DNA from: Chloroflexota bacterium
Lineage (GTDB): Bacteria > Chloroflexota > Limnocylindria > Limnocylindrales > Limnocylindraceae
Length of the DNA stretch: 50,191 bases
Direction of reading: 5' to 3'
Assembly (NCBI GenBank): GCA_026389535.1
Contig: JAPLHR010000079.1
Coordinates: 1-50,191, forward strand
Below the pieces are notes generated by a model. The model had not been told where the DNA came from. It worked only from the letters and a program-made list of their open reading frames with translations, and did not search any database. How positions within the stretch are numbered: the first letter of the stretch is position 1; every line of letters starts with the position of its first letter. This document shows positions 8,419 to 31,044 of this stretch, piece after piece. The position numbers and the translations under genes were made by a program.

Positions 8419-8462
8419 GGAGAGAAGATCACAGCGGCAACATACCGCTCACGTAGCGAGGT

Positions 8463-27755: not shown

Positions 27756-28160
27756 TTAGCTCCCGAGGAGCAGGTCGAGCCACGCGTCGAGCGGCGAGCG
27801 AGTTGGCGCATCAGGACTGAACCGCCGTGCGCCAGACCCCGGAGCATCCTCTGGAAGTGGCGCCGCGTCAGCCGCTAAGACGAACGGGCGTTCCACAGTG
27901 GAGCCGAGGCTGTAGCCGCGCGCAACCAACTCGAGGAAGGCGGCGTCCTCGAGGAGCACCCGCTCCGCAGTAAGTGCGTCGGCCCGAGCCTGGAGCGCCG
28001 CAGTCTCGTCGCGCAGCTGCGCCAACCGCGTATTCACCTGAATCACGCCGATCAGATTTCGCCCAAACTCCACGACGAAGAGCGTCACCAGCAGGGCCTG
28101 CCCGAGGAAGATCAGGGCGCCGCGCGTGGTGCTGGTGCGTCGGCGAATCATGACCCTCAT
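27756..28160 (-). CDS. FtsB/DivIC-like septum formation initiator protein
   Basis: This 134-residue bitopic membrane protein has a basic cytoplasmic N-terminus (MIRRRTSTTRG), one TM (about residues 15-35), then a heptad-like coiled coil (NTRLAQLRDETAALQARADALTAERVLLED) and the family's FLELVARGYSLGSTVERPFVL segment, which corresponds to 'yieriARe.lglv.pgE'. A Pro/Ala-rich tail follows. FtsB-type proteins bridge FtsL and FtsQ in the divisome. The first ATG at 28160 lies 6 nt from a GAGACT box with TTGACG 17 nt upstream; a second ATG is three codons in. Family assignment rests on architecture more than on sequence identity. Confidence 0.7.
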   Translation of the reverse strand: MRVMIRRRTSTTRGALIFLGQALLVTLFVVEFGRNLIGVIQVNTRLAQLRDETAALQARADALTAERVLLEDAAFLELVARGYSLGSTVERPFVLAADAAPLPEDAPGSGARRFSPDAPTRSPLDAWLDLLLGS

Positions 28161-28166
28161 GACCCC

Positions 28167-28195
28167 AGTCTCCGCGCCACACCCATCGGCGTCAA
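28167..28195 (-). promoter_or_regulatory. Promoter of the FtsB-like gene (TTGACG-17-GAGACT)
   Basis: On the minus strand TTGACG, a 17-bp spacer and GAGACT end 6 nt before the ATG at 28160. The -35 is good and the -10 weak. The start would be leaderless. Confidence 0.4.
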
Positions 28196-28217
28196 GCAGG
28201 GGCGCTGCGCGGGGTGC

Positions 28218-28223
28218 TAGCCT
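28218..28223 (+). promoter_or_regulatory. -10 box (TAGCCT) of a leaderless start for the acidic small protein
   Basis: TAGCCT ends 7 nt before the GTG at 28231. It supports choosing this GTG over the ORF track's upstream ATG at 28126. Confidence 0.45.
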
Positions 28224-28230
28224 GCGCGGC

Positions 28231-28647
28231 GTGTACTTCTATGAACTTCACGAGGCGGACGACGAACTCGCTATCGGCATGACCCTCGCCCACGACGAGG
28301 CCTTCGCCCCGAGCGAGTTCTTGGCAATGGTGGAGACCGCCCGGAGTCGGGTGATGGAAACCTTTACCGAGGAGACCCTCATTGAGGCGATCGCCGCTGA
28401 GCTTGAACGCGAGCACGACTTTGCCGCCTCACTGGATTCCCGCCTGGTGGCCGCAGTGGGCATCTCTTCTGAGGAGGGCGAGACCCGCCTTCTAACGCAC
28501 GAGGGGGCGGGTGCCCACGCCGCTGACGAAGGCGAGGAGGAGGATCCCGACCTTGCCATCGCTGAGGCGCTGCTCTCAGGACGTGAGCCGATCGGCCTGC
28601 GCACCGCTGTCGTGGACCTAGAGAAGAACGAGTCGCTCGACTCTTAA
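28231..28647 (+). CDS. Conserved hypothetical acidic protein
   Basis: The track starts at 28126, but that start overlaps the divergent FtsB-like gene. A GTG at 28231, 7 nt after TAGCCT, gives 138 residues beginning VYFYELHEADDELAIGMTLAHDEAF. The protein is strongly acidic (SSEEGETRL, ADEGEEEDPDLAIAEALL), has no TM or signal, and seems to contain two parts: a compact N-terminal alpha/beta region (about 1-90) with FTEETLIEAIAAELEREHDF, and an acidic C-terminal region. The YFYELHE...AHDEAF and TLxEAIAxELExxHxF pattern looks like a lineage-restricted conserved family. I do not recognise a function. Confidence 0.65.
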   Translation: MYFYELHEADDELAIGMTLAHDEAFAPSEFLAMVETARSRVMETFTEETLIEAIAAELEREHDFAASLDSRLVAAVGISSEEGETRLLTHEGAGAHAADEGEEEDPDLAIAEALLSGREPIGLRTAVVDLEKNESLDS

Positions 28648-28663
28648 GGGCGTGGAGCTCGGG

Positions 28664-30271
28664 CTACCAGCGAGGCAGACCCTTTGAGCCCTTCCAGACT
28701 TGATTCATGATCGGTACGCCATCGGTGGCGACGTCAACGAAGTTTGGCTGTGATTGGTTGAGGATCACCGTTGGCAACATGCGCGTGCTGACCAGCCGTG
28801 ATCCCACGAATGTTGATTCAATAACGAGCCCCTCAGACGTTTCAACGGACCAGTTCTGGTCGAAGACGAAGTTCCCCATGGAGTAGAAGACCGGCTTGTC
28901 GTTGATGATCTCCATGGCACTCGCCCAGTGCGAGTGCGATCCAAGGATCATGTCGGCACCAGCCTCGATAGCCCGCTTGGCAAACCTACGCTGTGAGGCG
29001 GTCGGCTGCGCCTGGAACTCCAAGCCCCAGTGCGGGAAAACGATGACGACGTCGGCACCAGCGGCGCGAGCCGCCGCAATGGAGGCGCGCATCTCAAGGA
29101 CCCCAATCGGCGCACTCCCCGGCCGGTTTGCCCGCGCGTGCGTGCTCGGGTTTACCTGGTCGACTGCAACGATGCCCACGGTGATGCCACCAACGTCGGT
29201 GAGCCACGGGCGCTGCGCCTCAGCAAGGTTTGCCCCGGCGCCACCGCTGCCCATGCCGGCAGCTTTTACAGCGGCAATAGTCTCGGGGATGCGATAGACG
29301 CCCCCATCGCCGATGTGATTGTTTGCCAGCGAGAGGAAATCAAAGCCTGCCTCTTTCACCACCCGCAGAAGCGCGGGGTTTCCCGTGAAGGTTGTACCTG
29401 AGTTGTGTTGGCGCCACTTCTTCGGTGTTGGCGATTCAAGGTTCGCGATCGAGAGATCTGCCTGCTGGAAGAGTGAGCGCATCAGGCCGTTGATGCCGCC
29501 ACCGCTTACGTAGCGCGCGGCGACACGTGGCACGCCAAATTGGCTGCAACAGGTTGTGCCAGTGATATCGGCAAAGCCGCCATCAAAGAGCGATTCTGCC
29601 CCACGCTTTGAGCGCTTCGCGTTGGCTGAAACGCCACGGTCAAGCAGGATGTCGCCACCAGCTGCCAGAGTCCATGCGGTTGCAGGATCGTACGCGAGCG
29701 GACCGGAGAGCCAATCTGCAGGAATCGATGCGTCGAGGGGAAGCTCGGCGCGCAGCGGCCAATCGGCCAGCGAAGCAACGCGCTGCACGCCAACGATTGC
29801 AGCCCCCTCCCACGTAAGGGTGCGAAGCGCCGGCTCAAGGGCGGCGAGTCGCACGAACCCTGCCGCCTTCTCATCAGCGGCGAGTGCCGCCTTGAGGGCG
29901 GTGCGGTCCGCGACGAGTGTCAGGCGAGATGTGATTGAGGTGGCCGAGAGGCCGAGTGCCGCAAGGATGGCGCTCGACTCCGGCGCAATCAGGATCAGTT
30001 TGGTGATCGGTAGCTTCCCCCCGACCTCAGTGAGGCGCGCGACCCCAACGCTCGTGAGCGCGGTGAGGGTGCTGCGGTATCCGGCAACGGGGATCAGCGG
30101 GCTCCGTGTGTCGCTGGTCGGTGAGGGGCTTGCGCTAGCCGAAGGATCTCCGCTCGCCCCCGACGGCGCAGCAGAGGTGCCACACGCGGCGGCAAGCAGG
30201 AGTGCGAGCGCGAGCGTGAAGAGGCTGCGACGTCGCGGCAACGGGGCCTGGGTCACAGCGGGCAGATGCAC
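28664..30271 (-). CDS. CapA/PgsA-like metallophosphatase lipoprotein
   Basis: This 535-residue exported protein starts with a lipoprotein signal (SLFTLALALLLAAACGTS) and a Ser/Pro-rich linker. Residues of about 50-200 form an extra N-terminal domain of unknown type. The C-terminal CapA domain is clear: LAAGGDILLDRGV (metal-binding Asp), SIANLESP, FDFLSLANNHIGDGG, VVIVFPHWGLEF, MILGSHSHWASAMEI and VFYSMGNFVFDQ, all family signatures. CapA homologues take part in poly-gamma-glutamate capsule synthesis, but many are uncharacterised surface phosphatases, and no capBC genes are nearby. The GTG at 30271 sits 6 nt from TAGGAT, within the promoter shared with the divergent nucleosidase gene. Confidence 0.85.
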   Translation of the reverse strand: MHLPAVTQAPLPRRRSLFTLALALLLAAACGTSAAPSGASGDPSASASPSPTSDTRSPLIPVAGYRSTLTALTSVGVARLTEVGGKLPITKLILIAPESSAILAALGLSATSITSRLTLVADRTALKAALAADEKAAGFVRLAALEPALRTLTWEGAAIVGVQRVASLADWPLRAELPLDASIPADWLSGPLAYDPATAWTLAAGGDILLDRGVSANAKRSKRGAESLFDGGFADITGTTCCSQFGVPRVAARYVSGGGINGLMRSLFQQADLSIANLESPTPKKWRQHNSGTTFTGNPALLRVVKEAGFDFLSLANNHIGDGGVYRIPETIAAVKAAGMGSGGAGANLAEAQRPWLTDVGGITVGIVAVDQVNPSTHARANRPGSAPIGVLEMRASIAAARAAGADVVIVFPHWGLEFQAQPTASQRRFAKRAIEAGADMILGSHSHWASAMEIINDKPVFYSMGNFVFDQNWSVETSEGLVIESTFVGSRLVSTRMLPTVILNQSQPNFVDVATDGVPIMNQVWKGSKGLPRW

Positions 30272-30276
30272 ACCGC

Positions 30277-30283
30277 TATCCTA
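30277..30283. promoter_or_regulatory. Shared bidirectional -10 (TATCCTA/TAGGATA) for capA-like gene and mtnN
   Basis: The two start codons are only 17 bp apart. TATCCT (plus, 30277-30282) ends 6 nt before ATG 30289, and TAGGAT (minus, 30283-30278) ends 6 nt before GTG 30271. Five of six bases are shared, so both leaderless promoters use one duplex site and must exclude each other. Confidence 0.6.
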
Positions 30284-30288
30284 CCCCC

Positions 30289-31044
30289 ATGCCGCAACAC
30301 TTCCGCCCATCAGGCCCAACGCTCATCGCTGCCGCGCTCAGCGAGGAGCGCGCCGCCCTTGAGGCGCTCGCCACCGACCTGGTGCCGCACACACTGCCAG
30401 GACTTGTAGAGGGTGCACTGCTCATCGGCCACATCGACACACACCCGGTCGCCCTGCTGCGCTGTGGAGTCGGCAAGGTCGCCTCGGTGGTTGCAGTCAC
30501 CGCCGCCCTGGCAGTTGAGCCCCGCTGCGTGATCTCGGTCGGCTCCGCCGGCGCCCTGCATGCGGGATATCGCGTCGGCGACGTCCTACTCGCCGATGGT
30601 GTCTTGCAGCATGACTTTGCCGCAGCAGAGGCCGATGGCTTTCGACTCTTCGGCTACGGCGCAGAAATTCCGTCGAAAGGCGACCCCCTACTCGTCGCCG
30701 ATACCGAGCTCGTCACCGCAGCGTTTGATGCCGCCACACCAACAACGACACGCCTTGGGATCAACCTCCGTCGCGGCCGCATCGCCACCGGCGACTGGTT
30801 TGTCGCCGACCAGAAGGTTCGCGATGCGATTGCCGCCCGCAGCTCAGCCGACCTCGTTGAGATGGAGGGGGCGGCCATCGCCTATGCGGCACGCACGCAC
30901 GGCATCCCCTGGCTGGTGATCCGCAGCGTAAGCGACTCTGGTGATGGCGAGGCCACGCTGAGCTTCTGGGAGTATCTCGCGCTCGCCTCAAAGAACGCCG
31001 CCGAGATTGTGCGCGCCATCCTGCCAGCGCTGGAGCGCCGCTAG
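30289..31044 (+). CDS. mtnN: 5'-methylthioadenosine/S-adenosylhomocysteine nucleosidase
   Basis: This 251-residue phosphorylase-superfamily nucleosidase hydrolyses MTA and SAH to adenine plus the thioribose. Features are LIAAALSEERAALEAL at the N-terminus, LLRCGVGKVASVVAVTAAL, CVISVGSAGALHAGYRVGDVLLAD, GRIATGDWFVAD, the substrate-binding DLVEMEGAAIAYAA (catalytic-site Glu) and VIRSVSDSGDGEAT with the general-acid Asp position. Related futalosine or purine nucleoside phosphorylases cannot be fully excluded. Its stop is shared with the convergent murI stop inside a CTAG palindrome. The start is leaderless (see the shared promoter). Confidence 0.85.
   Translation: MPQHFRPSGPTLIAAALSEERAALEALATDLVPHTLPGLVEGALLIGHIDTHPVALLRCGVGKVASVVAVTAALAVEPRCVISVGSAGALHAGYRVGDVLLADGVLQHDFAAAEADGFRLFGYGAEIPSKGDPLLVADTELVTAAFDAATPTTTRLGINLRRGRIATGDWFVADQKVRDAIAARSSADLVEMEGAAIAYAARTHGIPWLVIRSVSDSGDGEATLSFWEYLALASKNAAEIVRAILPALERR

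Follow-up and report, generated by a model that had tools for sequence, protein, structure and literature searches.

A conserved, probable double-leaderless bidirectional promoter between a capA-like gene and a nucleosidase gene in Chloroflexota

Near-symmetric −10 elements can be bound by RNA polymerase in both orientations (PMC10268837, PMC12825309), and bidirectional promoters that share a −10 element are attributed to Warman et al. (2021), as cited in PMC10268837. The two start sites are most often 18 bp apart, because positions −7 and −11 then pair reciprocally (PMC10268837, PMC12825309); a T at −18 is favoured at bidirectional promoters, but is not a strict requirement (PMC10268837). The sections of PMC3898074 that deal with leaderless promoters of Mycobacterium tuberculosis place TANNNT about 12 nt before the start codon, with no conserved −35 element, and include a divergent pair, prpD (Rv1130) and Rv1129c, for which both mRNAs were mapped as leaderless. 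A 2011 survey reported leaderless genes in 4 of 12 Chloroflexi genomes and put their mean share in those four at only 4.7% (PMC3160421).

Here we describe a site at which two known facts, symmetric −10 elements and leaderless promoters placed right before the start codon, appear to be joined. It lies in a window of 50,191 nucleotides from a draft genome of 1.11 Mb in 110 contigs, estimated to be 78% complete. The proteins of the locus are 94–100% identical to those on contigs from lakes that are named Candidatus Aquidulcis or uncultured Chloroflexi. Positions 30269–30291 read CAC-ACCGC-TATCCTA-CCCCC-ATG; the starts of the two genes are 18 bp apart and TATCCTA is exactly midway between them. 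The coordinates, letters and 17-bp spacing of the initial annotation all proved correct, as did its reading of one TATCCTA as TATCCT towards one gene and TAGGAT towards the other, each ending 6 nt ahead of its start codon (Table 1). The CapA-like protein has 535 amino acids (Pfam PGA_cap, 2e-63), and its N terminus, VHLPAVTQAPLPRRRSLFTLALALLLAAAC, resembles a lipoprotein signal peptide; the nucleosidase has 251 amino acids and belongs to the phosphorylase superfamily (Pfam PNP_UDP_1, 6e-41). We consider it likely that the site is a conserved, double-leaderless bidirectional promoter of the 18-bp class, with start sites that are predicted.

Table 1. Positions of the features discussed, in window coordinates unless a contig is given
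Feature	Position	Strand	Remarks
Gene X	28126–28647	+	Upstream-most start given, 28231 preferred by the codon-usage gene caller; directly precedes the nucleosidase gene in capA-less relatives (synteny)
capA-like lipoprotein gene	28664–30271	−	PGA_cap; GTG start at 30271
Whole intergenic region, ACCGC-TATCCTA-CCCCC	30272–30288	.	17 bp
TATCCTA, shared predicted −10 element	30277–30283	.	Form TANNNTA; invariant in nine capA-bearing genomes
TATCCT, predicted nucleosidase −10 box	30277–30282	+	First base at −12 of ATG; TANNNT peaks genome-wide at −12/−13
TAGGAT, predicted capA −10 box	30278–30283	−	First base at −12 of GTG; commonest leaderless-type hexamer
Nucleosidase/phosphorylase-superfamily gene	30289–31044	+	PNP_UDP_1; ATG at 30289, predicted start site
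NTF2-like small protein gene (named from its look only)	C58, ATG at 8437	−	
DUF885-like gene (named from its look only)	C58, ATG at 8461	+	

The start codons are unlikely to be artefacts of gene calling, to judge from their conservation. GTG and ATG occupy the same places in all nine capA-bearing genomes that can be read across the site, four of them (G006, G014, G001 and G002) have GTC or GTT in place of the next in-frame GTG of capA, at codon 6, and base changes from the GTG to the arginine run are mainly at third positions of codons. Neither gene has a conserved alternative start nearby, and the start codons are thus identified independently of the box.

The placing of TANNNT shortly before a start codon recurs throughout the source genome. 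We called 940 genes on its assembled stretches with our own simple codon-usage model, so that genome-wide counts are approximate; the stretches omitted about 1 kb at two contig ends. Of the 222 genes with a divergent upstream neighbour, 40 have a TANNNT that begins at −12 and 22 have one that begins at −13 (together 62), compared with 0–5 genes at any other position within 40 nt and a background of about 1 per position; its density in divergent intergenic regions is 0.005 per base. Genes with a distant co-directional neighbour have TANNNT at −12 and −13 in 14 and 4 of 192 cases, respectively. Among 394 genes that have a co-directional neighbour close by and seem to be internal to operons, TANNNT again peaks at −12, in 25 genes; these may have internal leaderless promoters or miscalled starts. 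Leaderless promoters, as predicted from this signal, are common in the genome. Both the capA-like gene and the nucleosidase gene fit this placing, which makes it probable, on the basis of sequence, that both are leaderless.

We identified 114 leaderless-type boxes in the genome, of which 12 are TAGGAT. The base that follows the box is A in only 8% of them, TG is found one base before the box in only 10, and across the set there is no TTGAC-like signal at −35 distance. Immediately ahead of the box, 90% carry C or G, and A and T are depleted over the four preceding bases, so that the boxes form sharp AT islands in GC-rich flanks. At the capA/nucleosidase site itself, a search of both sides found nothing convincing as a −35 element at the usual spacing; the best candidate, GTCACA on the nucleosidase side, matches at 4 of 6 positions with a spacer of 19.

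The palindromic pattern CAY-N5-TANNNTA-N5-RTG has a single match in the whole 1.11-Mb genome, the site described here. A scan of 19 genomes from the genus gave matches at 11 places, the capA/nucleosidase locus accounting for nine, compared with 3 for a reversed control pattern. The remaining two places (in G013 and G006) were considered as further pairs and rejected, as a long open frame is missing on one side. Conservation of TATCCTA in relatives had been proposed in the initial annotation as a check, and it is borne out: all 7 bases and both spacings are identical in the nine capA-bearing genomes. Of the 272 fourfold sites of capA, only 44 (16%) do not vary among these genomes, pairwise differences at such sites reach 0.56, and the ten other intergenic bases that flank TATCCTA differ by up to 6. 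A rough calculation that takes sites as independent and neutral puts the probability of seven invariant sites near 3e-6. Together with the sharp enrichment of TANNNT 12–13 nt before start codons, this invariance indicates that the layout is more than chance. Within the capA clade, invariance of the TATCCT part could reflect the nucleosidase promoter only.

Relatives with and without capA differ in the box. Ten of the 19 genomes have capA in the interval that separates gene X from the nucleosidase gene (window 28648–30288); in one of them the contig breaks inside capA, and nine can be read across the site. The other 9 have no match to capA. Where capA-less genomes could be read at the locus, the nucleosidase gene comes immediately after gene X, and the neighbours are in the same order (an ftsB-like gene, an aldehyde dehydrogenase gene and murI). 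Four of the capA-less genomes keep TATCCT before the nucleosidase ATG, as TATCCT-CGCCCG-ATG in G005, TATCCT-CAGCAC-ATG in G009 and G013, and TATCCT-CTGCCGT-ATG in G010; by inspection, the box is absent from the other five (G004, G008, G015, G016 and G017). The seventh base is A in all nine capA-adjacent sites and C in all four capA-less genomes that keep TATCCT, and the C leaves no TANNNT on the opposite strand. Among the genomes read, the reverse box TAGGAT is therefore found at the site only where capA adjoins.

A MurI tree rooted by order-level relatives groups the capA genomes as one clade (100/97), and the capA-less genomes may form a clade too (76%). The link between capA and the A at the seventh base thus rests on one evolutionary event and the genomes are not independent; the co-occurrence of capA with the reverse box is strong sequence evidence for function only when taken together with the invariance inside the capA clade. 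Order-level relatives have capA homologues (best 42–47% identity) without these neighbours. With this lack of synteny and the possible capA-less clade, the comparison is compatible with a gain as well as with a loss of capA. One tentative scenario, which we regard as possible but somewhat less probable than not, is promoter capture by symmetry, in which one base change (presumably from C to A after TATCCT) made the −10 element of an existing leaderless neighbour symmetric and gave an incoming capA its own promoter. Similarly tentative is the corollary that the promoter and the start codon of the incoming gene would have been fixed together within 17 bp.

In our working model, a bidirectional promoter of the 18-bp class would have TATCCTA as its only −10 element. 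We infer that the housekeeping RNA polymerase could bind TATCCTA in either orientation, through the −11A and −7T of each strand, with position 30289 (A of the nucleosidase ATG) or 30271 (G of the capA GTG) as the first transcribed base. Both mRNAs would then be leaderless, with start sites that coincide with the start codons. Two polymerases would be unable to bind at once, and two −10-only promoters would be expected to give low, largely independent expression of both genes. Genomes with capA, and some of the capA-less relatives, would carry the nucleosidase promoter; the reverse promoter would exist where capA adjoins, one base (C or A after TATCCT) from the capA-less state. The −10 element on the capA side could be weak or silent. 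The −18 base is T on the capA side (opposite the A of ATG) and C on the nucleosidase side, which bears on a preference only (PMC10268837).

The alternative that survives best, although we judge it unlikely, is that only the nucleosidase promoter is real, that capA is transcribed with a leader from further up, inside the nucleosidase gene, and that TAGGAT is a Shine–Dalgarno-like site by virtue of its AGGA. The AGGA lies 7 nt ahead of the GTG, a workable distance, and AGGA is enriched 10–12 nt before start codons in the genome, operon-internal genes included. However, at most of these AGGA sites the next base is G (AGGAG), and sites of the form T-AGGA-T behave as the −10 class. Furthermore, the capA-specific base is the T before AGGA, and the GAGGAT of capA-less genomes would be an equal or better Shine–Dalgarno site, so the T would make sense as part of a −10 box but not of a ribosome site. 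This comparison favours the promoter over the Shine–Dalgarno reading.

A switch would require feedback, or initiation that is strong or regulated. The initial annotation had proposed that transcription in one direction should block the other, making the pair a simple built-in either/or element; the shared −10 box and the probable double leaderlessness find support in the sequence and its comparison, but the switch does not, and we consider it very improbable. Start sites 18 bp apart are too close for two polymerases at once (PMC12825309), and steric exclusion is therefore expected here, but such exclusion alters output only where occupancy is high. The site has no clear −35 element on either side, and the products, a nucleosidase-family enzyme and a CapA-like lipoprotein, show no sign of being regulators, neither Pfam match being to a known regulator family. 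At five Escherichia coli bidirectional promoters, basal activity was too low for interference, which was seen only when one direction was strongly activated (PMC12825309), so that published competition is negligible at basal activity. The sequence features give no sign of the feedback or the regulated strong initiation that would define a genetic toggle. Least probable of all, by a small step, is coincidence, in which the site is the −10 box of the nucleosidase gene only and the symmetric A and the distance to the GTG arose by chance or through another constraint: this is a single 7-bp site with one evolutionary origin, but the pattern has no second match in the genome and is shared unchanged by nine genomes, and A is rare after leaderless boxes.

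The likely bidirectional promoter is not the only candidate of its kind. The source genome has 111 divergent pairs, of which 18 have leaderless-type boxes on both sides and two have overlapping common boxes. The second of these two (contig C58, locus L098) carries TACCAT and TACCCT, which overlap by 2 bp in ATGGTACCCT, between genes with starts 24 bp apart, near the 23-bp class of PMC12825309. An alignment of 16 such loci from 15 genomes of the genus, with and without capA, shows no change in the ten-base core; even at loci with a shifted start codon, each box has a plausible ATG or GTG at 12–13 nt. A separate locus in G011 (L220, contig C64, around 1501–1524) has TATCATA between a gene for a WecB-like epimerase (named from its look) and a divergent 500-codon frame. 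It has long frames on both sides and a double-leaderless layout like that of capA and the nucleosidase gene; it has no DNA match in the other 18 genomes of the genus.

The mechanism considered here is already known, and the capA/nucleosidase site is probably a clean and conserved example of it. To call the arrangement very unusual, as the initial annotation did, is too strong, given that 18 bp is the commonest start-site spacing of bidirectional promoters (PMC12825309, PMC10268837). The layout is minimal, with two start codons and two predicted promoters in 23 bp. Relatives that have capA and relatives that lack it, one base apart in the box, offer a natural comparison for promoter acquisition, and we suggest that leaderless-rich genomes are a good place to seek such pairs.

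As in the 18-bp bidirectional promoters of E. coli and Salmonella, the site has one symmetric predicted −10 element (TANNNTA) readable on both strands, an 18-bp spacing, here between start codons, and a reciprocal −11A and −7T. Unlike at those promoters, the predicted start sites are the start codons, leaving no 5′ untranslated region on either side, and the host, a member of the Chloroflexota, belongs to a group not covered in PMC10268837 and PMC12825309. The leaderless TANNNT promoters of M. tuberculosis, in the sections of PMC3898074 that concern them, and those of high-GC bacteria (PMC3160421) have the same layout as in the genome studied here, in which the crude leaderless fraction among divergent genes is higher than the Chloroflexi figure of the 2011 survey (PMC3160421). 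Such promoters have been described gene by gene, and the common box of capA and the nucleosidase gene would add a second direction. From what those sections of PMC3898074 report, prpD and Rv1129c resemble capA and the nucleosidase gene as divergent leaderless neighbours, leaderlessness being predicted in our case, and differ from them in that one member of the pair is a regulator.
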